NCBI RefSeq assembly: GCF_027923555.1
Contig: NZ_AP025523.1
Location: 372,001-436,000 of the forward strand
DNA from: Vulcanimicrobium alpinum
GTDB lineage: Bacteria; Vulcanimicrobiota; Vulcanimicrobiia; Vulcanimicrobiales; Vulcanimicrobiaceae
DNA length: 64,000 bases
Direction: 5' to 3'
In this document: piece after piece, positions 7,118 to 49,230 of the stretch
Layout of the letters: each line of letters opens with the position of its first letter
Position numbering within the stretch: the stretch's first letter is position 1
Program-made: the position numbers and the translations under genes
Notes under the pieces: model-generated
What the model was told of the DNA's origin: nothing
Database searches by the model: none
What the model saw: only the letters and a program-made list of their open reading frames with translations

Positions 7118-8046
7118 TGCGCTACGTCGCCGGCATCGATGGCGGACAGTCGTCGACGACCGCCGTGATCGTCGGCGACGACGGCCGCATCCGCGGCCGG
7201 GGAACCGCCGGCCCGGCCGATCACGTCGACGAACCGCCGGGATCGACGCGCTGCGCCGACGCGCTCGGCGCCGCCGTGACGCGCGCGCTCGCCGCCGGCG
7301 GCCTTCCGCCCGCGACGATGCTCGAAGCGGCCGTCGCCGGCATCTCCGGCTACGACCGGCACTTCGACGGCGCTGCGCCGCGCCTGCCCGCGCGCCGAAT
7401 GCGTCTGCTGCACGACGCGCCGATCGCGCTCGCCGGCGCTGTGCAGGCGCGGCCCGCGATCGTCGTCATCGCCGGGACGGGCTCGGTCGGCTACGGTGAC
7501 GACGGCACGCGGACGGTGACCGTCGGCGGCTGGGGCCACCTCTTCGGCGACGAGGGGAGCGCGTATGCGATCGCTCGCGAGGCGCTCGCAAGCGCGATGC
7601 GCGCCGAAGATCGCGGCGAGCGCGCGCCGCTAGGCGACGCAGCGCTCTCGTATTTCGACGTGCGCGATCTGCGCGCGCTGGCGACCGCGGCGCTGACGGG
7701 CCGGATCACGCGCGCCGCGCTGGCGTCGTTCGCGCGGCTCGTCCACGACGGCGCGCGGCTCGGCGACGCCGACGCGGCCGCCGTCGTCGACGACGCTGCA
7801 CGCGCGCTCGCCCGACTCGCCGCGACGACGATCGCCCGGCTCGACTTGGGCGAACGGACCCCGCGCGTCGCGTTCGTCGGCGGCGCGGTGAGCGGCGAGG
7901 GGTTCCGGGCGGCGATTCGCGACCGGCTCGCCCCGCTCGCGCCGGCGGCGATCGTCGTACCGCCTCGCTACGACGCGGCGGTTGGCGCAGCGCTGTTGGC
8001 ATTCGACGACGCGGGGCTGGCGCACCCCGAGCGGATCGTCGAGTGA
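7117..8046 (+). CDS. BadF/BadG/BcrA/BcrD ATPase family sugar kinase (GlcNAc-kinase-like)
   Basis: 309 aa in the ASKHA fold. Visible motifs are GIDGGQSSTTAVIV (phosphate 1), VIAGTGSVGYG (phosphate 2), GGWGHLFGDEGSAYAIA, typical of eukaryote-type N-acetylglucosamine kinases, and VAFVGGAVSGEGF (adenosine). The likely reaction is ATP-dependent phosphorylation of an N-acetylhexosamine. The pairing with NanE directly downstream (GTGA overlap) supports an amino-sugar substrate such as ManNAc or GlcNAc. The GTG start shares its G with the previous stop codon. Confidence 0.88.
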   Translation: MRYVAGIDGGQSSTTAVIVGDDGRIRGRGTAGPADHVDEPPGSTRCADALGAAVTRALAAGGLPPATMLEAAVAGISGYDRHFDGAAPRLPARRMRLLHDAPIALAGAVQARPAIVVIAGTGSVGYGDDGTRTVTVGGWGHLFGDEGSAYAIAREALASAMRAEDRGERAPLGDAALSYFDVRDLRALATAALTGRITRAALASFARLVHDGARLGDADAAAVVDDAARALARLAATTIARLDLGERTPRVAFVGGAVSGEGFRAAIRDRLAPLAPAAIVVPPRYDAAVGAALLAFDDAGLAHPERIVE

Positions 8047-8711
8047 GCGTCCTCGAAGCACTGCGCGGCGGCGTGATCGTCTCGGTCCAGGCGGAAGGCG
8101 GCTCGCCGCTCAACGCACCGGAGGCGATCGCCCTGCTCGCGCGGGTCGCGGCGGCGAACGGGGCTGCCGGGGTCCGGGCCGAGGGCCTCGCGCGGCTGGG
8201 CGCGGTGCGGCGCGCCGTGGACATCCCGATCGTCGGGATCGTCAAACGTCAGTACGATGGGTTCGCACCCTACATCACGGCGACCGAGCGCGAGATCGCG
8301 GAGGTCGTCGCCGCCGGCGCGGAGATTGTCGCGTTCGACGCGACCGGGCGGCCGCGGCCGGGTGGCTGGGACGACGCCGCGATGGTCGGCGCCATCCACG
8401 CGCGGGGCGCCCTCGCGATGGCCGACTGCGCCACCGCCGACGACGTGCGCCGCGCCGCCGCGGCAGGCGCCGACGTGACGGCGACGACGCTCTGCGGGTA
8501 CACCAAGGCCACGCGGGGGACGGAGCTGCCGGCGCTCGACCTGGTGCGGGCGTGCGCGGCGACGGGACGCTTCGCCGTGTGCGAAGGCGGGGTCGGGACG
8601 CCGGCGGCGGTACGGTCGGCGTTCGCCGCCGGGGCGCAGGCGGTCGTCGTCGGGACGGCGATCACGAACGTCGACGTGCTCGTGCGGCGGTTCACCTCGG
8701 CGACATCGTGA
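8043..8711 (+). CDS. nanE: N-acylglucosamine-6-phosphate 2-epimerase NanE
   Basis: 222 aa TIM barrel converting ManNAc-6-P to GlcNAc-6-P. Family motifs visible are LRGGVIVSVQAEGGSPL at the N-terminus, GIVKRQYDGFAPYIT, AEIVAFDATGRPRP, MADCATADD, and the phosphate site CEGGVGTPAAVR with VVVGTAITN at the end. Length is normal (about 220-235). The start GTG overlaps the kinase stop (GTGA), so kinase and epimerase are coupled and form a complete two-step module from free ManNAc to GlcNAc-6-P. NagA and NagB are not in the window. Confidence 0.94.
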   Translation: MSVLEALRGGVIVSVQAEGGSPLNAPEAIALLARVAAANGAAGVRAEGLARLGAVRRAVDIPIVGIVKRQYDGFAPYITATEREIAEVVAAGAEIVAFDATGRPRPGGWDDAAMVGAIHARGALAMADCATADDVRRAAAAGADVTATTLCGYTKATRGTELPALDLVRACAATGRFAVCEGGVGTPAAVRSAFAAGAQAVVVGTAITNVDVLVRRFTSATS

Positions 8712-38841: not shown

Positions 38842-40002
38842 CTACCCGGCGGCGGGGATGACGCGCCGCCCGACGCGGGCGATCTGCGCGATCAGTTCGG
38901 CGATACGGCGCGATGAGCCGCGCGGCGCGACCGCCGTCTGCTGGGCGCGCATCTTCGCCAGGCGTTCCTGGCTGTGGACGATCCGCGCGACCGACTGCAC
39001 CACCTCGGCGGTCGTCAGCGCGACCACGCCGATCCCGTTGGTGCGCACGTAGTCGAGGTTGCCGCGCTCCTGTCCAGGGACGTAATCGTAGACGACGACC
39101 GGGACTTCGGCGACCGACGCCTCCGCGATCGTCCCCGGACCCGCCTTGGTGACGAGCAGGTCGGCGGCGCGCATCAGCTCCGGAACGTCGTTGCGGAAGC
39201 CCAGGACCGTCATCGGCGTCGGCAGGCTGGGGGCAAGTTCTTCGAGCTTCGCCTTGAGGGCGGCGTTGCGGCCGGTGACGACGACCAAGTGGTAGTCGAG
39301 TCCGGCTTTCGCCAAGCCCATCGTCGTGGGGAGCAGTTTGCCCCCGCCCTCGCCGCCGGCCATCAGCAGACAGATCGTCCCGTCGATCGGGAGGCCGAGT
39401 TTCTTGCGCAGCTCGCTCTTGGTCGCCGAGACGTCTTCGAAGCGCGGATGGATCGGGTGGCCGAGGAGCCGGAGCCGCTCGGGCGGGACGCCGCGGTCGA
39501 GCGCACGCTGGTAGACTTCGCGCGCGGGGACGACGGTCAAGTCGGCTTCGGGGAGGAGCCAGCCTTCGTGGACGCGCCCGAGGTCGGTGATGACGGTGAC
39601 GATCGGGACGGCCTGCATCCCGGCGTCGGCCCGCGCGCGCAGGGCGGCGTGGTTGAGCAGCGGGTGGACCGAGACGATGACGTCGGGCTGGTACTGCGTG
39701 AAGACCTCGCGCAGCCGTTCGCGGTAGAGCGGCTCGCAGAACCGCACGATCGTGCGGTACCGGCGGCGGCCGTTGGTGGCGTGATAGAGCGCGCCGTAGA
39801 TGGGGGGCGCGTAGCGAAGGGCCGCGCTATACGCCGGCCCCAATTTGGAAAGCGGGAACGTGCAGTGGGTGGCGATATCGTCGATCCGCCACTCGAAGCG
39901 GGTCGCTCCTTCGATCTCGTCAAGGGCGGCGCCGATGGCCTGTGCACCGGCGCGATGGCCTCCGCCCGTATCGGAGATCAGAAAGAGGACACGTTTCGTC
40001 AA
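38842..40002 (-). CDS. MGDG-synthase-like glycosyltransferase (GT28 type)
   Basis: 386 aa from TTG 40002. The N-terminal MGDG_synth domain starts RVLFLISDTGGGHRAGAQAI; DVIVSVHPLLNHAAL and ITDLGRVHEGWLLP follow; the C-terminal donor domain has GGEGGGKLLPT, LGFRNDVPELMRAADLLVTKAGPGTIAEA. It transfers sugars to diacylglycerol or a related lipid at the membrane face. TTG 40002 follows a GAGGCGG site just after the upstream stop; the ATG at 40044 lies inside the previous gene. One base separates it from the M20D start. Confidence 0.9.
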   Translation of the reverse strand: MTKRVLFLISDTGGGHRAGAQAIGAALDEIEGATRFEWRIDDIATHCTFPLSKLGPAYSAALRYAPPIYGALYHATNGRRRYRTIVRFCEPLYRERLREVFTQYQPDVIVSVHPLLNHAALRARADAGMQAVPIVTVITDLGRVHEGWLLPEADLTVVPAREVYQRALDRGVPPERLRLLGHPIHPRFEDVSATKSELRKKLGLPIDGTICLLMAGGEGGGKLLPTTMGLAKAGLDYHLVVVTGRNAALKAKLEELAPSLPTPMTVLGFRNDVPELMRAADLLVTKAGPGTIAEASVAEVPVVVYDYVPGQERGNLDYVRTNGIGVVALTTAEVVQSVARIVHSQERLAKMRAQQTAVAPRGSSRRIAELIAQIARVGRRVIPAAG

Positions 40003-40009
40003 TTCCGCC

Positions 40010-40609
40010 TCAACTCGTTTGCTTCGCGACGGTTCGTCGCGCAACCGTGCGCCGCTTCGCGCTCACGGCTCGTCGTACCGAGACGGGTTTGCGGCGTTTC
40101 ATCGTCCGCGTCCAACTGCGCAGGACGCCGAGCGTGGCGCGCGCGGGCGCGTCGTAGAAACGGAAGATGTCGCCGAACTCGATCTCCGGGTTGACGTGGT
40201 GACCGTTGTGGTCTTCCGGCAGCACCAGGCCGGTCGCGCGTGCGATCCGAACGAACCAAGCCGGCGTTTGCCACCCGAGCTCGCAGGTATGCCGCCACCA
40301 CACGTGCGTCTGACCGAGGGCGAGCCCGAGGATCGCGCCGGCGACCGAGATGCGCGCGCAAACGATCGCAAGCACGATGTACGGCAGCGCGCCGAGCAGA
40401 CCGTCGAGGAGGACCTGCGGATCGCGGCTGAGCACCGCATGATCCCAATACGAACGACGGCGATCGTGGTGCGTCCGGAGGTGGAGTTTCCCCCACGCAT
40501 GCTGCGGAACGTGATAGAAGAAGGTCGAGGCGAAATCTCCGACGAGCAAAACGGTGAGCATTGCTGCAATCGCGGAGAACACCGGCGAGCCCAGCACGGT
40601 CGTGTTCAC
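40010..40609 (-). CDS. membrane fatty-acid/carotenoid hydroxylase-like protein
   Basis: 199 aa from GTG 40609, with AAGGA upstream. Several hydrophobic helices carry histidine boxes for a di-iron site: FFYHVPQHAWGKLHLRTHHDRR and a late EDHNGHH. This order fits the fatty acid hydroxylase / sterol desaturase superfamily (including CrtZ-like enzymes), although the protein is short. The lysine/arginine-rich tail is unusual. Head of the operon that continues with the glycolipid glycosyltransferase, hinting at lipid modification. Confidence 0.75.
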   Translation of the reverse strand: MNTTVLGSPVFSAIAAMLTVLLVGDFASTFFYHVPQHAWGKLHLRTHHDRRRSYWDHAVLSRDPQVLLDGLLGALPYIVLAIVCARISVAGAILGLALGQTHVWWRHTCELGWQTPAWFVRIARATGLVLPEDHNGHHVNPEIEFGDIFRFYDAPARATLGVLRSWTRTMKRRKPVSVRRAVSAKRRTVARRTVAKQTS

Positions 40610-41287: not shown

Positions 41288-41968
41288 TTACGCGAACGAG
41301 CGCCGCAGGAACGACTGCACGCGATCCCACGCATCGGCGATCTGACGCGTCGCGATCGTGCCGAGGTCTTCCCGGAAGAACGAGTGTCCGACGTCGGCGT
41401 ATTCCTGGATCTCGAACGTCTTGTTGTTCTCACTGAGCCGTTTGCGGATCGTCGCGATCTCGTCGGGACCGATCTGCTCGTCGTGGCCGCCGAAGACCAG
41501 GAGCAGCGGCGTGCGCACCGCCGCGCCCGCCTCGTCGAGCGCGGTGGCGCTGGTACCGGGGATCGGGCGCGCGATGCTCTGCTCGTAGAACGCGATCGAG
41601 GCGGCGAGTCCCGGGAGCGTCGAGGCGAGAAACGCCGCCGTGCCGCCGTAGCCGAAACCCCAGGTCGCGATCTTTCCGTGCTGCACGAAGCTCTGGTCGT
41701 CGAGCCAGTCGCGCGTCGCGGCGACGTCGGCGCAGACGTCCTGCGCGTTGAAGACGGTCTTTGCGTCGCGCCCGCGCAGATAGTCGATCGCGATCGCCGC
41801 GTAGCCCGCCGCGGCCGCTTGGTTCGTGATGCGCTTGATCTCGTCGTCGAAGCCGTAGATCCCCTCGAGGACGATCACCGCCGGGCGGCGCCGGTTGTCT
41901 TCGGTGCGCGCGAGATGCGCGTTCATCGCACCCGACGGGGCGTCGATCGTGATCTCCTCGGTGATCAT
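41288..41968 (-). CDS. dienelactone-hydrolase-like protein lacking the nucleophile
   Basis: 226 aa alpha/beta hydrolase, a clear paralogue of the next gene. Asp (LLLVFGGHDEQIG) and His (YADVGHSFFRE) of the triad are present, but the nucleophile elbow reads TWGFGYGGTAAF: residue 106 is Gly where the paralogue has Cys. The Glu of QEIFG in the paralogue is shifted or replaced too (LEGIYG). It is therefore unlikely to be a standard dienelactone hydrolase. Its ATG overlaps the paralogue's stop (ATGA), so both are made together. Confidence 0.9.
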   Translation of the reverse strand: MITEEITIDAPSGAMNAHLARTEDNRRRPAVIVLEGIYGFDDEIKRITNQAAAAGYAAIAIDYLRGRDAKTVFNAQDVCADVAATRDWLDDQSFVQHGKIATWGFGYGGTAAFLASTLPGLAASIAFYEQSIARPIPGTSATALDEAGAAVRTPLLLVFGGHDEQIGPDEIATIRKRLSENNKTFEIQEYADVGHSFFREDLGTIATRQIADAWDRVQSFLRRSFA

Positions 41969-42720
41969 CGGAGGTGCTCCCCGAGAAATGCCTGGACACG
42001 ATCCCAGGCGTCGGCGACGTCGCGGGGCGTCGTCGCGTCGGCGCGATTCGACGGATCGAGCTGCGCGCCGCTGTCGCGGAAGAACGCGTGCCCTTGATCC
42101 GGGTAGACCTGGATCTCGAAGTGCTTGTGCGCCGCGGTCAGCGCCGCGCGGATCTGTTCGATGTGGTCGGCGGTGATGTAGTCGTCTTTGCCACCGAAGA
42201 CCAGCAGCAACGGCGCCCGGATCTCGGCCGCGTCGCCGATCGGGGCCGGCTCGCCGCCGGGAAGCGGCACGGCGATATTGCCGCCGTAGAATGCCACCGC
42301 CGCCGAGAGTCCGGGGAGGGTCGCGGTGACGAACGCGGTCGTCCCGCCGAAACAGAATCCCCAGGTCGCGATATGGTTGAATTCGACGAAGTCCTGGGAA
42401 TTGAGCCAGTCTACGGCAGCCGCTACGTCCGCGCGCAGCGTGGCTTTGGTGACGGCTCCCGCCGCCTTGAAGCCTGTTTGCAGCCCCTCGGGGGTATAGG
42501 GTTCGTTGAGGTAGGGGTGCGTGCGGTGATAGTAGTTGATGGCCAAACCCACGTAACCGGCGCCGGCGACGAGGTCGGTGATCCGCTTGACCTCGGTATT
42601 CACGCCGAAGATCTCCTGCAGTACGATGACGGCCGGCCGCGGCGCGGGGTCATCGGGCCGCGCTAGGTAGGCCGGCATCGGGGAGCCGGCGACGTCGATT
42701 TCGAGCGATTGAGAGATCAC
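41965..42720 (-). CDS. dienelactone hydrolase family protein
   Basis: 251 aa from GTG 42720, with AGGAGG four to five bases upstream. The active-site set is complete: Glu 36 (QEIFG), nucleophile Cys 123 (TWGFCFGGTTAF), Asp in FGGKDDYIT, and His in PDQGHAFFRD. Hydrolyses dienelactones or similar esters. Divergent from egtD with a 55-base gap (42721-42775) that must contain both promoters. Confidence 0.94.
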   Translation of the reverse strand: MISQSLEIDVAGSPMPAYLARPDDPAPRPAVIVLQEIFGVNTEVKRITDLVAGAGYVGLAINYYHRTHPYLNEPYTPEGLQTGFKAAGAVTKATLRADVAAAVDWLNSQDFVEFNHIATWGFCFGGTTAFVTATLPGLSAAVAFYGGNIAVPLPGGEPAPIGDAAEIRAPLLLVFGGKDDYITADHIEQIRAALTAAHKHFEIQVYPDQGHAFFRDSGAQLDPSNRADATTPRDVADAWDRVQAFLGEHLR

Positions 42721-42775: not shown

Positions 42776-43780
42776 ATGGCTTGGACGACGCCGGGGACAT
42801 TCGCCGACCGCTTCGCGCTCCATCGCGATCCGCACCCCGCGCGGGTGGCGACGTTCGCCGAGGACGTGCGGACAGGCCTCGGTGCGCGACCGTTCGCGCT
42901 CTCGCCCAAGTATTTCTACGACGATCTCGGGTCTGCGATCTTCGAAGCGATCACGCGGCTGCCGGAATACTACCTGACGCGCGTCGAGCGCGATCTGCTC
43001 GCGACGTACGGGCGCGAGATCGCGGGCCGGTTCGCGGGGCCCCTCGAACTCGTCGAGCTCGGCAGCGGTAGCGCGCTCAAGACCCGCATCCTGATCGACG
43101 CGATCCTCGAGCGCCAGCCGCGGCTGACGTATCATCCGATCGACATCTCGGCCGACGCCGTCACCGAATCGTCGCTCGCGCTCACCGCCGCGTACGAACG
43201 GCTGCGCGTCGTCGCGTACGCCAGCGACTACTTCCCGCTGCTGCGCGAGAAGCGGCTGGTGACCCACGATCGCGTCCTCGCGCTCTTCCTCGGCTCCAAC
43301 ATCGGCAACTTCGAACCGCAGGACGCCCGCGAACTGCTGACGTTCCTTGCGCGCGCGCTGCGTCCCGGCGACGGCGTGCTCATCGGCTACGATTTGAAGA
43401 AGGACCCGACGATCCTCGAACTCGCGTACGACGATCCGACCGGCGTGACGGCGGCGTTCAATAAGAATCTGCTGGCGCGGATGAATCGCGAGCTCGGCGC
43501 CGGCTTCGAGTTGAACGCGTTCCGCTTCCGCGCGAGATGGAACGAGCGGCACGGCGCGGTCGATTCGTTCCTGGTGAGCGAGCGCGATCAGCAGGTGCGG
43601 ATCCCGGCCTCCGGTCTCACGGTCGACTTCGCGGCGGGCGACACGATCCACACCGAGTCATCATACAAGTTCACGCGCGACGAGATCGCGATGCTCGCGA
43701 CGCGCTGCGGCTTCACCGAGACGGCGTCCTACACCGACGCGGCGGGACGCTACGCGCTCTCACTCTTTGCCGTCGCCTGA
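42776..43780 (+). CDS. egtD: L-histidine N-alpha-methyltransferase EgtD
   Basis: 334 aa. It trimethylates histidine to hercynine, the first step of ergothioneine synthesis. Typical elements: SPKYFYDDLGSAIFEAITRLPEYYLTR, the SAM loop ELGSGSALKTRILIDA, ALFLGSNIGNFEP (Asn of the histidine site), IGYDLKKDP, and IHTESSYKF with the Glu and Ser that bind the histidine amine. EgtB, EgtC and EgtE are not in the window. Its 3' end overlaps by 21 bases the GGCT-like gene that closes the OpuC-type operon. Confidence 0.95.
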   Translation: MAWTTPGTFADRFALHRDPHPARVATFAEDVRTGLGARPFALSPKYFYDDLGSAIFEAITRLPEYYLTRVERDLLATYGREIAGRFAGPLELVELGSGSALKTRILIDAILERQPRLTYHPIDISADAVTESSLALTAAYERLRVVAYASDYFPLLREKRLVTHDRVLALFLGSNIGNFEPQDARELLTFLARALRPGDGVLIGYDLKKDPTILELAYDDPTGVTAAFNKNLLARMNRELGAGFELNAFRFRARWNERHGAVDSFLVSERDQQVRIPASGLTVDFAAGDTIHTESSYKFTRDEIAMLATRCGFTETASYTDAAGRYALSLFAVA

Positions 43781-44218
43781 GCGCCCGCGGCGCAGCCGGT
43801 CGCGGACGGGCGCGAACGCACCGATTGCGCGTTCGACTTCCTCGTTCGCGAGCGCGGCGAGCAGCGCCAAGCCGGCGACCGGCTCGACGTGCGTACTCGC
43901 CGCGTAGACATAGGTGCAGGCGGCGACGAGGCCGCGCGCGGTCTGCACGTCGACGCGCACGCGGTGGTAGTTCGGGACGTCTTCCCACGCGTCGGCGACG
44001 GCCCAGCCGGCGCCGTCGAGTGAGATCAGTACGCCCTCGACACGATCGAACGCGCTTGGCTCGATGCTCAGATAGCCGGAGGCGGTGATGACGACGCGCC
44101 GATAGCCCGCCAGCACCGCGTCTTCCCACGCGTACGACGCGCCCAGGATGCGCGCGCGCCACTGCTCGTCGCGAAACGTCCCGTACCCGAACAGCGGGAG
44201 GCTGCCGGATTCGTTCAT
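43760..44218 (-). CDS. gamma-glutamylcyclotransferase-like (AIG2/GGCT) protein
   Basis: 152 aa. The GGCT fold opening LPLFGYGTFRDEQW is clear, followed by AVLAGYRRVVI, VEGVLISLDGAGWAVADAWE with the conserved acidic residue, and YHRVRVDV with ACTYVYAAS. Family members release 5-oxoproline from gamma-glutamyl compounds. The ATG 44218 overlaps the stop of the OpuC-type permease (ATGA), so it is the last gene of that transporter operon. Overlaps the egtD 3' end in convergent orientation. Confidence 0.85.
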   Translation of the reverse strand: MNESGSLPLFGYGTFRDEQWRARILGASYAWEDAVLAGYRRVVITASGYLSIEPSAFDRVEGVLISLDGAGWAVADAWEDVPNYHRVRVDVQTARGLVAACTYVYAASTHVEPVAGLALLAALANEEVERAIGAFAPVRDRLRRGRSGDGKE

Positions 44219-44826
44219 CGCTGCGCGGAGCGCTCGACGGCGCGCAGCGCGAGATCCGCGCCGATCGCGAGCGCTGCCGAGGCGAGTGCGCCGGCGACGA
44301 TCTTCTGCGGGTTGTTCGTCGAGATGCCCTCGAAGAGGAGCATCCCTAAGCCGCCCGCGTTGGTCCATGCCGCGATCGTCGCGAGCGCGACCAGCGAGAC
44401 CGTCGCCACCCGCACGCCGCCGAGCACGACCGGCAGCGCGGCCGGAACTTCCACCTGCAGCAGCGTTTGGCGCGCGGTCAGCCCGAGTCCGCGCGCGGCG
44501 TCGACGAGCGCCGGATCGACGCTTTCGAGGCCCGCGACGACGCCGCGTATGAGCACCATCTGCGCGTAGATGACCAGCGCCGCGATCGCGGTCGCCGAAC
44601 CCAAGCCGAGCACGTAGACCAGCAGCGCCAGCAGGGCGAGGCTCGGGATCGTGTAGAGTGCGCCGGTGATTCCGAGGACGAACGCGCGCAGCGGCGGCCG
44701 GCGCGCGGCGGCGACGCCGAGCGGGATCGCGATGACGAGCGCGATCGCCAGCGACGCAGCGACCAGCGCGAGGTGCTGGCCCAGCAGCAGCGCGACGCGG
44801 TCGCCGTGTGCGACGAGGTAGGTCAT
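44215..44826 (-). CDS. quaternary-amine ABC transporter permease (OpuCB type)
   Basis: 203 aa, about five membrane helices. GALYTIPSLALLALLVYVLGLG and the EAA loop DPALVDAARGLGLTARQTLLQVEVPAALP match OpuBB/OpuCB, and ATIAAWTNAGGLGMLLFEGI is the usual end region. Coupled at both ends by 4-base overlaps to the ATPase and the GGCT gene. Confidence 0.92.
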   Translation of the reverse strand: MTYLVAHGDRVALLLGQHLALVAASLAIALVIAIPLGVAAARRPPLRAFVLGITGALYTIPSLALLALLVYVLGLGSATAIAALVIYAQMVLIRGVVAGLESVDPALVDAARGLGLTARQTLLQVEVPAALPVVLGGVRVATVSLVALATIAAWTNAGGLGMLLFEGISTNNPQKIVAGALASAALAIGADLALRAVERSAQR

Positions 44827-45635
44827 CGCTCGATCAGCGGGCGTTCCGACGCCAGCCGGCGCGTCTGTGCGTCGACCCCGACGAGATCGCGCACGAAGTC
44901 GTCGGCGGGTGCGCGCAGCAGGTCGTCGGGCGCGGCCGTCTGCACGACGCGTCCGGCGTTCATGACGACGACGCGGTCGGCGAGCCGCAGCGCTTCGTCG
45001 ACGTCGTGGGTGACGAAGACGATCGTCGTGCGCAGTTCGCGGTGGACGCGCGCGATCTCGTCCTGCAGTGAGGCGCGGACGATCGCGTCGACGGCGGCGA
45101 ACGGTTCGTCCATCAGCAGGACGCGCGGCTCCGCGGCGAGCGCGCGCGCGACGCCGACGCGCTGCGCTTCGCCGCCGGAGAGTTCGCGCGGCTTGCGATC
45201 GCGGTAACGCGCGGGCTCGAGACGCACGAGCGCGAGCAGCTCGTCGACGCGGCGGGCGATACGCGCGCGATCCCAGCCCAGCAGCGACGGGACGACGCCG
45301 ACGTTCTGCGCGACGGTGTAGTGCGGGAACAGCCCGACCGCTTGGATGACGTAGCCGATCCCGCGCCGCAGATCGGTCGCGTCGCGCTCGCGCGCGTCGG
45401 CGCCGTCGATCAGCACGGTGCCCGACGTCGGCTCGACGAGCCGGTTGATCGTGCGCACCAGCGTGCTCTTTCCGCAGCCCGACGGGCCGAGCAGCACCGC
45501 GAACGTCCCGCCGCCGATCGCGAGGTCGACATCGCGCACCGCCGGCGCCGCGGCGCCCGGATACGCGACGCTGACGCCGCGGAAGGCGACGGCGGCGCCG
45601 GTGCTACGCGAGTCCGTGGGCTTTGAGGAAATCAC
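44823..45635 (-). CDS. quaternary-amine ABC transporter ATPase (OpuCA type)
   Basis: 270 aa. Walker A GPSGCGKST near residue 50, Q-loop YVIQAVGLFPHYTVAQNV, ABC signature LSGGEAQRVGVARAL, Walker B VLLMDEPFAAVD, and H-loop VFVTHDVDEAL. It lacks the C-terminal CBS pair found in OpuCA/ProV osmosensors, so osmotic gating of that kind is not expected. The frame overlaps the SBP gene by 32 bases. Confidence 0.93.
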   Translation of the reverse strand: MISSKPTDSRSTGAAVAFRGVSVAYPGAAAPAVRDVDLAIGGGTFAVLLGPSGCGKSTLVRTINRLVEPTSGTVLIDGADARERDATDLRRGIGYVIQAVGLFPHYTVAQNVGVVPSLLGWDRARIARRVDELLALVRLEPARYRDRKPRELSGGEAQRVGVARALAAEPRVLLMDEPFAAVDAIVRASLQDEIARVHRELRTTIVFVTHDVDEALRLADRVVVMNAGRVVQTAAPDDLLRAPADDFVRDLVGVDAQTRRLASERPLIER

Positions 45636-46488
45636 GGGCGACGTCCGCCGGTTCGCGCTTCGCCGAACCGTCCACGTCCAGGTTCATGTTCTGCATGTCG
45701 TCGTCGTTCAACAAAGCGGTGACCTTGTTCAGGACGGTCGCGAGTTGCGGCTTCGCGGCGAGGATCTCGCGCCGTACGACCGGCGCGACGTGATACGCCG
45801 GGAAGAGATGCTTGTCGTCTTCGAGGACGATGAGATGCTCGGCTTTGAGTTGGCCTTCGGTCGAGAACGCGATGACGACGTCGACGTCGCCGTGCTCCAG
45901 CGCCTGATACTTCAGCCCGTTGTCGACGATCTTCGTCGCCTTGAAGCGAAAGCCGCCGTAGCGTTTCTGCAAGCCCGGCAGACCGTCGGCGCGCGAGAGA
46001 AACTCGGGGACGCAGCCCAGCCGCAATTCGCCGGCCTTCGCCGCGAGGTCGCTGAGCTTTTCGAGCGAGAACCTCCCGGCGACCGACTGCGTCGTCGCCA
46101 ACGCCTGCGTGTCGTTCATCGGCGACTGGTCGAGCCAGACCAGACCGTACTGCTTCTCGAACGCGTTCTTCACCGTCGTGTAGGCGCGCTTCGGATCGCT
46201 CTCCGGCGGGAGATGCAGGACGTTGAGCAGCGCCGTGCCGGTGTATTCCGGATAGAAGTCCAGCTCGTTGCGGTGCAGTGCCGCCATCGCGATGTCGGTG
46301 GTCCCCAAGTTGAGGCGGCGCGTCACCGCGAATCCCGCATGCTCGGCGGCCTGCGCGTAGAGTTCGCCGAGGATGAGCTCTTCGGTGAAGTTCTTCGAAC
46401 CGGCGCGCACCGTGTCGCGCGGACCGCACGAGACGGCGAGCGGTGCGGCGGCGAGGAGCCCGAGCGCGCGGGCGCGTGACAGATCCAT
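45604..46488 (-). CDS. quaternary-amine-binding lipoprotein (OpuAC/OpuBC family)
   Basis: 294 aa. A signal with lipobox LAVSC, then the OpuBC-type start AGSKNFTEELILGELYAQ and ALHRNELDFYPEYTGTAL, with QALEHGDVDVVIAFSTEGQLKAEH further on. Binds a trimethylammonium-type ligand such as betaine, choline, carnitine or a histidine betaine. Located between the two permease genes' operon positions, 6 bases after the first permease. Confidence 0.93.
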   Translation of the reverse strand: MDLSRARALGLLAAAPLAVSCGPRDTVRAGSKNFTEELILGELYAQAAEHAGFAVTRRLNLGTTDIAMAALHRNELDFYPEYTGTALLNVLHLPPESDPKRAYTTVKNAFEKQYGLVWLDQSPMNDTQALATTQSVAGRFSLEKLSDLAAKAGELRLGCVPEFLSRADGLPGLQKRYGGFRFKATKIVDNGLKYQALEHGDVDVVIAFSTEGQLKAEHLIVLEDDKHLFPAYHVAPVVRREILAAKPQLATVLNKVTALLNDDDMQNMNLDVDGSAKREPADVARDFLKAHGLA

Positions 46489-46494
46489 GTTCTC

Positions 46495-47088
46495 CTAGAC
46501 TTCGAGACGGCGCTGCGCGGCGCCGACAGCGGCGTCTGCGGCGAGGGCGAGCACCGCGACGGTGACGGCGCCCAGCAGCAGTTCCTGAACGTTCGCAGTT
46601 TGGAGCCCGCCGACGATGTAATCGCCCAGGCCGCCGCCGCCGATGAACGCGGCGAGCGTCGCCGAGGCGATCACTTCGACCGTCGCGGTGCGGACGCCGA
46701 CGGCGACGACCGGAAGCGCGAGCGGCCACCGCACCCGTACCCCGATTTGGCGCTCGGTCATCCCCGCTGCACGGGCCGCGTCGAGCGTCGCCGCGGGGAC
46801 CGCGCGCAGCGCGACGTCGGTGTTGACGAGGATCGGCGGCAGCGCAAGGACGACGAGCGCGAGCAGCGCGGGGGCGAAGCCGAGTCCGAGCAGCGGGATC
46901 GCGAGCGCCAGGATCGCCAGCGAAGGGACGACGCGGAGTCCGCCGGCGAGGGCGAGCAGGACCGAGCGCGGGAGCGGACGATCCGCGGTGAGCCCCGCGA
47001 ACGGGATGCCGACGGCGAGTGCGAGAGCGAGCGCGGAGACCGCGAGGGCCAGGTGGGAGCCGATGTGCGCGAAGAGGTCGGCGATCAC
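46495..47088 (-). CDS. quaternary-amine ABC transporter permease (OpuCD type)
   Basis: 197 aa from GTG 47088. Helices ALAVSALALALAVGIPFAGL and GGLRVVPSLAILALAIPLLGLG, EAA loop ATLDAARAAGMTERQIGVRVRWPLALP, and ASATLAAFIGGGGLGDYIVGGLQ. First gene of the minus-strand operon permease-SBP-ATPase-permease-GGCT. The longer frame to 48204 is antisense to ppk and is not part of it. Divergent from ppk with a 21-base gap. Confidence 0.92.
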   Translation of the reverse strand: MIADLFAHIGSHLALAVSALALALAVGIPFAGLTADRPLPRSVLLALAGGLRVVPSLAILALAIPLLGLGFAPALLALVVLALPPILVNTDVALRAVPAATLDAARAAGMTERQIGVRVRWPLALPVVAVGVRTATVEVIASATLAAFIGGGGLGDYIVGGLQTANVQELLLGAVTVAVLALAADAAVGAAQRRLEV

Positions 47089-47109: not shown

Positions 47110-49230
47110 ATGATCACCGGTTCGCAAGTCGGCTCCGACCTCCGCCCGTCGCCGACCGCGCCTGCGCCGCTCGCGCTGGACGACCCCGCGCTCTACATCA
47201 ACCGCGAGACGTCGTGGCTCGAATTCAACGATCGCGTCCTCGAAGAGGCGCTCGACGAGCGCAACCCGCTCCTCGAGCGGTTGAAGTTCATCGCGATCTA
47301 CGGTACCAACCTCGACGAGTTCTTTATGATCCGCATCGCGGGTCTGATGCAGCAGATGGCGGCGGAGGTGCACAAGCGCTCCGACGACGGCCGGCTTCCC
47401 GAAGAACAGCTCGCGCTCGTGAGCGAGCGGCTGCGCCGTTCGCTCGCACGGATGACCGACTGTCTGCAGAATCAGCTCTTTCCCGCACTCGAACGCCACG
47501 GGATCCGGATCCTGCGCTACGAGCAGCTCGACTCCGAGACGAAGCGCGCGATGCGCCGGTACTACGACGAGCGGGTCTTCCCCGTGCTCACGCCGCTGGC
47601 GATCGACAAGGGCCATCCGTTCCCGTACATCTCCAACCTCTCGATCTCGCTGGCGGTCGAACTCTCCGAAACGACGGCGGACGGACCGGTGCACTACGTC
47701 GCGCGCGTCAAGGTGCCGGGCTCGCTGCCGCGCTTCGTCCCCGTCGACTCCGCGCCGCCGGGACAGCGCTGGTTCGTGCTGCTCGAGGACATCATCGGGC
47801 ACAACCTCGAGGCACTTTTCCCGGGCCTGCGCGTCACCGCGTCGCACGCGTTCCGGGTGACGCGCGATGCCGACCTCGACCTGCAGGAGGACGAGGCCGA
47901 CGATCTGCTGCGCGCGATCGAGTCGGAACTCCGCAAGCGGCGTTTCGGCGAACCGGTTCGGCTCGAAGTCGAGCCCGAGATGCCCGAGAGCCTGCGCGCC
48001 AAACTGCTCGAAGCGCTCGAACTCGACCGCAATGACTGCTACGAAGTCGACGGGATGATGGGGACCGCCGATTTGTGGACGCTCTACGCGATCGACGAGC
48101 CCGCGCTCAAAGATCCGCAGTTCACGCCGGCGATCCCGAAGCGGCTGATCGGTCAGACGGACATCTTCGCCGCGATTCGCGAAGGCGATCTGCTCCTGCA
48201 CCATCCGTACGAATCGTTCGATCCGGTCGTGCAGTTCGTCCAGCAGGCGGCGAGCGACCCGAGCGTGCTAGCGATCAAACAGACGCTGTACCGCACCTCC
48301 GGCAACTCGCCCGTGGTCGCGGCGCTGCTCGACGCGGCCGAGAACGGCAAGCAGGTTGCGGCGCTGATCGAACTCAAGGCGCGCTTCGACGAAGAAAACA
48401 ACATCCACTGGGCGCGCACCTTGGAGCGCGTCGGGGTGCACGTCGTCTACGGTCTGCCAGGGCTCAAGACGCACGCGAAGGTGACGCTGGTGGTGCGCGA
48501 CGAGCCCGACGGGATCCGCCGCTACATGCACTTCGGGACCGGCAACTACAACGACAAGACCGCGCGCGTCTACACCGATCTTTCGCTCTTCACGTGCCGC
48601 GCCGATCTCGGCGCCGACGCGACCCAGCTCTTCAACGCGCTCACCGGCTTCTCGAAAGCCGACAGCTACGAACAACTGATGGTCGCGCCGACCGGCCTGC
48701 GGACCGGCTTCGAAGAGCTCATCGCGCGTGAGACGGAGCACGCGCTCGCCGGACGCCCCAGCGGAATCATCGCTAAGCTCAACGCGATCAGCGATGCCGG
48801 CATCGTGCAGGCGCTCTATCGCGCGTCGCGCGCCGGCGTCCCGATCGACCTGGTCGTGCGCGGAATGTGCGTGCTGCGTCCCGGGATCCCGGGCGTCAGC
48901 GAGACGATCCGCGTGCGGAGCATCGTCGGACGATTTCTCGAGCACTCACGCGTGTTCGTATTCTCCAACGGCGGCCAACGGGAGATCTACGTCGGCAGCG
49001 CCGACTGGATGGGCCGCAATCTCGACCGCCGCGTCGAAACCGTGGTCCCGGTGTTCGACGCGATGCTGGGCGACATGATCGTTGACGACATCCTCGACGT
49101 GTATCTCGCCGACAACGTTAAGGCGCGAACCCTGCTCCCCGACGGCAGCTACGAGCGCCGCGGCGTGCTTCCTGGTGAGCCGCGCATCGACACCCAGCAG
49201 ATCTTCCTCAAACGCTACCAAGCCGTCTAG
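47110..49230 (+). CDS. ppk1: polyphosphate kinase 1
   Basis: 706 aa (E. coli 688). N-terminal RETSWLEFNDRVLEEALDERNPLLERLKF, then YGTNLDEFFMIRIAGL; the catalytic PLD-like region has LKTHAKVTLVV (phospho-His near residue 455), GTGNYNDKTARVYTDLSLFT, and the second HKD-like part near VYVGSADWMGRNLDRRVE. Makes and uses polyphosphate with ATP at the membrane. ATG 47110 (or GTG 47104) begins just upstream of the conserved domain. Ends directly against the EVE gene with no base between. Confidence 0.96.
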   Translation: MITGSQVGSDLRPSPTAPAPLALDDPALYINRETSWLEFNDRVLEEALDERNPLLERLKFIAIYGTNLDEFFMIRIAGLMQQMAAEVHKRSDDGRLPEEQLALVSERLRRSLARMTDCLQNQLFPALERHGIRILRYEQLDSETKRAMRRYYDERVFPVLTPLAIDKGHPFPYISNLSISLAVELSETTADGPVHYVARVKVPGSLPRFVPVDSAPPGQRWFVLLEDIIGHNLEALFPGLRVTASHAFRVTRDADLDLQEDEADDLLRAIESELRKRRFGEPVRLEVEPEMPESLRAKLLEALELDRNDCYEVDGMMGTADLWTLYAIDEPALKDPQFTPAIPKRLIGQTDIFAAIREGDLLLHHPYESFDPVVQFVQQAASDPSVLAIKQTLYRTSGNSPVVAALLDAAENGKQVAALIELKARFDEENNIHWARTLERVGVHVVYGLPGLKTHAKVTLVVRDEPDGIRRYMHFGTGNYNDKTARVYTDLSLFTCRADLGADATQLFNALTGFSKADSYEQLMVAPTGLRTGFEELIARETEHALAGRPSGIIAKLNAISDAGIVQALYRASRAGVPIDLVVRGMCVLRPGIPGVSETIRVRSIVGRFLEHSRVFVFSNGGQREIYVGSADWMGRNLDRRVETVVPVFDAMLGDMIVDDILDVYLADNVKARTLLPDGSYERRGVLPGEPRIDTQQIFLKRYQAV

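Follow-up and report, generated by a model that had tools for sequence, protein, structure and literature searches.

Our analysis of a 64,000-nucleotide stretch of the Vulcanimicrobium alpinum genome (the window) leads us to lean towards a model whereby egtD, which encodes the histidine N-alpha-methyltransferase EgtD, and the four genes of an ATP-binding cassette (ABC) importer facing it form a long-lived functional neighbourhood. In this model the importer would take up a histidine betaine, either the antioxidant ergothioneine or its precursor hercynine, for salvage, and a GGACT/AIG2-like gene at the end of the importer operon would be lineage-specific. The genes are laid out as follows.

42776..43780, + strand: egtD, histidine N-alpha-methyltransferase, 334 amino acids (aa), expected to make hercynine; recognised by TIGR03438, PF10017 and histidine-pocket residues; single copy in the genome
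43760..44218, - strand: GGACT/AIG2-like protein of gamma-glutamyl cyclotransferase fold, 152 aa; PF06094; last gene of the operon
44215..44826, - strand: permease 2 (BPD_transp_1), 203 aa
44823..45635, - strand: ATPase of the ProV family, 270 aa with the GTG at 45635 taken as start codon; ABC_tran, no CBS domain
45604..46488, - strand: substrate-binding lipoprotein (substrate-binding protein, SBP) of ProX/OpuC fold and D339/Q341/F419 pocket type; PF04069, pocket residues and AlphaFold model
46495..47088, - strand: permease 1 (BPD_transp_1), 197 aa; first gene of the operon
47110..49230, + strand: ppk1, polyphosphate kinase; divergent neighbour outside the proposed unit

The window egtD is genuine: its product scores 321.9 bits against the NCBIfam equivalog TIGR03438 (cut-off 290.9) and 336.5 bits against PF10017, it retains Y39, Y56, N166 and E282 of Mycobacterium smegmatis EgtD, the histidine-binding residues of that enzyme, with Ser in place of M252, and it is the sole PF10017 protein of the 3.5 Mb single-contig genome. 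An earlier note on this DNA had described a complete egtD convergent to a coupled operon of permease, SBP, ATPase without CBS domain, permease and a gamma-glutamyl cyclotransferase (GGCT)-like gene, and profile scores, gene calls and Pfam matches bear this out, with egtD on the + strand and the operon genes in the same order on the - strand. The operon is tightly packed: ATGA overlaps couple the ATPase gene to permease 2 and permease 2 to the GGACT gene, the SBP and ATPase genes overlap by 32 nt provided that the GTG at 45635 is the ATPase start, and GGACT and egtD share 21 nt at their 3' ends. At the other end, the start of permease 1 lies 21 bp from that of ppk1. The ATPase scores 293 bits against TIGR01186 (proV), under the cut-off of 326.6, and CBS tails, weak or single, occur in some of its relatives.

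Support for a functional neighbourhood comes from the relatives of this organism, of which we surveyed 98 genomes; the class studied probably corresponds to Vulcanimicrobiia (Eremiobacterota). EgtD is found in 77 genomes and the SBP in 79. Both are present in 75 genomes, and in 63 of these the two genes lie within 8 kb of each other, in convergent orientation in all but one case (62/63). In most of the 12 remaining genomes one of the genes is the last on its contig or close to the edge; true exceptions are G046, where the genes are 70 kb apart, and G027, G053 and G092, where egtD adjoins an EgtB-like gene that replaces the transporter neighbourhood (loci L058, L059 and L063). A quick SBP tree places the egtD-linked proteins in a single clade with support of 99, in a tree whose backbone is not resolved. 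One contig labelled Rhodospirillales (L100) carries Eremiobacterota-like egtD and SBP genes and is probably mis-binned.

These linkage data bear on an alternative that we regard as possible though rather unlikely, namely that the window encodes an ordinary osmoprotectant importer for glycine betaine, choline or carnitine, and that its proximity to egtD is inherited synteny with no shared function. We inspected 40 regions and clustered their genes, comparing three families of the class, f1, f2 and f3, of which f3 is the most distant among those examined. Family f1 keeps many further window neighbours besides the transporter, which suits inherited synteny, and in f2 the transporter is in place but ppk1 has been relocated to the opposite flank of egtD. 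In contrast, of 14 window neighbours tested in f3, solely the four transporter genes persist (5/5 loci), and the other ten are lost, including GGACT, ppk1, MGDG synthase, SLT and EVE. The f3 loci were chosen for SBP linkage, and their informative part is the loss of all other neighbours. The association of egtD with the transporter exceeds general synteny, and the neighbourhood, whose conservation the earlier note had proposed to check, is not merely local. Among the other neighbours, ppk1 is kept in f1 and f2, and an MGDG-synthase-like glycosyltransferase gene (window 38842-40044) stays near egtD in the same two families.

The SBP itself matches PF04069 (210 bits), its predicted lipobox cysteine C21 is invariant among 16 relatives, and the fold matches of its AlphaFold model (pLDDT 91.6) include Helicobacter pylori EgtU (HpEgtU; 8dp6/8dp7) and Streptococcus pneumoniae EgtUC (SpEgtUC; 7txl). 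Its best matches in the Protein Data Bank (PDB) are choline/betaine/acetylcholine-type SBPs, with ~33-40% identity to solved members, and its NCBIfam matches are OsmF/ProV-like; both observations favour an osmoprotectant importer, though every NCBIfam match is under cut-off. We number pocket residues after S. pneumoniae EgtU, in which E375 and R379 touch the imidazole and carboxylate of ergothioneine and G244, F293 and the Y337 switch are diagnostic of the SpEgtU subcluster (PMC9732360). The window SBP keeps E375, R379 and D381 as well as Y443 and K242, and it has Phe at 244, Tyr at 293, Met at 337 and, in place of Y341, Gln. In its own numbering, D339 and Q341 are D126 and Q128. With the diagnostic residues replaced, the EgtUV-type importer of the earlier note does not hold, and we reject EgtU orthology on the basis of positions 244, 293, 337 and 341. 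This does not exclude ergothioneine as ligand, because H. pylori EgtU, which is not in the SpEgtU subcluster, still contributes to ergothioneine uptake, with lower affinity (PMC9732360). The window importer thus resembles the EgtU systems (S. pneumoniae EgtUABC, H. pylori EgtU) as a ProX/OpuC-type ABC importer with the same fold and the five retained residues, and differs in that its SBP and permease genes are separate, whereas S. pneumoniae has an SBP-permease fusion, and in that it adjoins egtD in an organism equipped with a set of biosynthetic genes. It resembles the OpuC/OpuB and ProX osmolyte importers in overall SBP fold and operon organisation. However, of the four-aromatic quaternary-ammonium cage of OpuC/ProX subcluster F-III (positions 293, 341, 419 and 443) only Y293, F419 and Y443 are present, and the Gln at 341 is conserved in the window SBP and all 28 egtD-linked SBPs compared; this departure from the osmolyte-type cage speaks against an osmoprotectant importer, and we recognised no osmolyte metabolism genes near the window importer.

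Relatives of the SBP outside the class provide a further indication of the ligand. In Paenibacillus, Brevibacillus, Cohnella, Aeribacillus, Lederbergia, Rhizobium, Martelella and Klebsiella they adjoin aromatic amino acid lyases, and all 11 lyases are without the MIO-forming Ala-Ser-Gly triad. Ergothionase, too, is a MIO-free lyase (PMC13405746). The best solved match of the Rhizobium lyase is ergothionase; the two bacillar lyases tested are closer in sequence to histidine ammonia-lyases than to ergothionase, and we deduce their substrate from operon context and the absence of MIO. A genome scan of Bacilli placed close SBP relatives in operons with genes for a lyase, urocanase, a thiohydantoin desulfurase-like protein (S-Me-THD), an amidohydrolase and an M20 hydrolase. 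This gene set matches the five-step ergothioneine degradation route that Beliaeva, Leisinger and Seebeck reportedly reconstituted in 2021, making these loci apparent ergothioneine-degradation operons. The SBPs of four of them (Lederbergia L147, Aeribacillus L124, Cohnella L125 and Brevibacillus L130) are 45-49% identical to the window SBP and share with it D/N339, Q341, F419, Y293 and F244, as well as an importer made up of an ATPase, the SBP and two permeases; the difference lies in the linked genes, which are those for the MIO-less lyase, urocanase, S-Me-THD, amidohydrolase and M20 hydrolase where the window has egtD. An OpuC-type importer lies within such operons at L140 and L149 too, the gene set varies by locus among all six, and no MIO-less lyase was seen within L140. 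In the nearest plasmid-borne relatives (Martelella, Rhizobium), the importer sits beside hutC and a histidine ammonia-lyase-like gene, and ornithine cyclodeaminase-family genes adjoin the rhizobial importers.

Because egtD linkage is class-wide, SBP relatives stand beside MIO-less lyases, and the D339/Q341/F419 pocket unites the SBPs of Eremiobacterota with most ergothioneine-type SBPs of Bacilli, we consider a histidine-betaine importer to be probably the best reading of this SBP system; the lyase-linked relatives likewise argue against an osmoprotectant importer. The uptake proposed in the earlier note finds its support here, in the linkage and in these relatives. From the same data we infer the ligand, and from the lyase content of the genome we infer salvage in preference to catabolism. 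Catabolism, with the importer feeding the breakdown of a histidine betaine, would match the catabolic operons around the SBP relatives of Bacilli and rhizobia. However, a search of the window genome for aromatic amino acid lyases returned a single one, of the MIO type with the ASG triad, and no ergothionase-like enzyme, and there are no lyase, urocanase or S-Me-THD genes near any linked locus of the class. Salvage is therefore favoured; we regard a catabolic role as very unlikely and reject a route through an ergothionase-like lyase, since the genome holds only the MIO-type enzyme.

Several observations weigh against a histidine-betaine importer tied to egtD. The two transcription units are convergent and therefore not co-transcribed; the residues E375, R379 and D381 are widespread over much of the SBP superfamily; Y341, a cage tyrosine in characterised SBPs, is replaced; and in G027 and G053 egtD adjoins egtB and this type of SBP is missing. 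Moreover, the Q341 pocket occurs in Cyanobacteria, Chloroflexi and Clostridia with neither a lyase nor egtD within ~7 kb, the exception being one cyanobacterial contig (L135) with egtD near a Q341-type SBP. Such SBPs unlinked to egtD are also what an osmoprotectant importer would lead one to expect, and in those three groups their ligand may be a different quaternary amine; the pocket type extends beyond the gene contexts that reveal a ligand. As a tentative proposal, which we hold with distinctly less assurance than the assignment of the window importer, SBPs with D339/Q341/F419 could constitute a distinct subfamily of histidine-betaine importers, serving salvage in producers among the Eremiobacterota and degradation in Bacilli, and far more widespread than EgtU in that it would include Cyanobacteria, Chloroflexi and Clostridia.

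In our model of the window system, hercynine produced by EgtD would be carried towards ergothioneine by an unlinked EgtB-like sulfoxide synthase, while the importer would take up ergothioneine or hercynine via its lipoprotein SBP, so that the cell would both make and salvage the histidine betaine. In the binding pocket, Y293, F419 and Y443 would form the cage, D339 and Q341 would lie at the hinge, and E375, R379 and D381 would hold the imidazole and the carboxylate. The earlier note had placed EgtB outside the window and named EgtB and EgtE as proteins to be sought in the genome. The former turned up as an unlinked EgtB-like protein of 423 aa (G000:C1:1819200-1820468), 1.4 Mb from the window locus; the latter did not, the genome search giving generic PLP matches only, the best of 104 bits against a cut-off of 400. 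Close relatives of the EgtB-like protein occur in most of the class, and it keeps the three-His iron motifs (GHI at 53-55 and HEEMH at 147-151). It scores 161 bits against TIGR03440 (cut-off 360) and does not reach the OvoA and SenA cut-offs either; among solved structures EgtB-IV is nearest to it, and it resembles EgtB-IV and OvoA more than the mycobacterial enzyme. Phe and Tyr occupy the positions of the D416/R420 pair of M. thermoresistibile EgtB (MthEgtB), which holds gamma-Glu-Cys. Searches of the genome for gamma-Glu-Cys ligases of the GCS1 and GCS2 families, the two families covered, returned none, and no EgtC was found over cut-off. The pathway is therefore like mycobacterial EgtABCDE in its genuine EgtD and EgtB-like sulfoxide synthase, and unlike it in lacking a GCS1/GCS2 (EgtA-type) ligase and EgtC or EgtE over cut-off. 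CthEgtB uses cysteine as sulfur donor (PMC10903977). By analogy, cysteine is likely the donor of the EgtB-like protein as well, in which case no EgtC step would be left to replace. At its own locus (L003, gene at 7201-8472), the EgtB-like gene has two Mutator-family transposase genes upstream and genes for a ketopantoate reductase-like protein and an AMP-binding enzyme downstream; no C-S lyase was seen among the neighbours scanned there.

This bears on the GGACT-like gene, for which the earlier note had proposed that made or imported hercynine enters an EgtB route with gamma-Glu-Cys and that the cyclotransferase then removes glutamate in place of EgtC. The protein has the GGACT/AIG2 gamma-glutamyl cyclotransferase fold as judged from profile and model: it scores 44.4 bits against PF06094 (cut-off 22.8), the YGT motif, of the form YG(T/S), and the catalytic-type Glu E79 are invariant in six GGACT sequences, and the best fold matches of its AlphaFold model are AIG2-like proteins, GGCT and GGACT; a phmmer search of the PDB gave no match. 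These features, the lack of an EgtC over cut-off, and the position of GGACT as the nearest called gene to the 3' end of egtD wherever the two share a contig would all suit the proposal. However, the genome has no GCS1 or GCS2 ligase, the EgtB-like protein is without the D/R pair that holds gamma-Glu-Cys in MthEgtB, and the GGACT gene was found in 12/98 genomes, all within three genera (its own and two sister genera), in contrast to the class-wide EgtD and EgtB. We therefore give next to no credence to the proposal in full and reject the GGCT as an EgtC substitute. The GGACT gene is better seen as a lineage-specific addition, a candidate gamma-glutamyl cyclotransferase that is unlikely to replace EgtC and probably takes no part in making ergothioneine. 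GGACT and permease may be separated by other genes; in G038 (L042, 2242-3738) a B12-binding radical SAM gene lies between them.

Known bacterial ergothioneine importers have been described mainly from organisms unable to make ergothioneine. If our preferred reading is correct, an importer beside egtD in a predicted producer, here in a poorly studied class, Eremiobacterota, would mean that producers also salvage ergothioneine or recover leaked hercynine, and the residue signature would be a simple way to spot histidine-betaine importers now annotated as osmoprotectant systems.

Further loci deserve mention. A second type of operon in Brevibacillus and Paenibacillus (L105, L111 and L132) combines an SBP that has Tyr at 341 with a urocanase and a lyase from which the MIO triad is deleted, plus an imidazolonepropionase-like amidohydrolase gene in L111 and L132, and could be for hercynine degradation. 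On Klebsiella oxytoca plasmid p1 (L086), a more distant SBP relative belongs to an importer accompanied by a MIO-less aromatic lyase, hutU-, hutD- and hutC-like genes and a formimidoylglutamate deiminase gene, a cluster suggestive of histidine-betaine utilisation encoded on a conjugative plasmid; similar SBP matches occur on other Klebsiella plasmids, and Klebsiella accounts for 168/572 SBP-positive plasmid records. A plasmid of Aerococcus tenax (L078) carries an EgtU-like permease-SBP fusion near flavocytochrome c and ornithine cyclodeaminase-family genes. Finally, in the window itself, two tandem, mutually related genes of the dienelactone hydrolase family lie immediately upstream of egtD (41288-42720).

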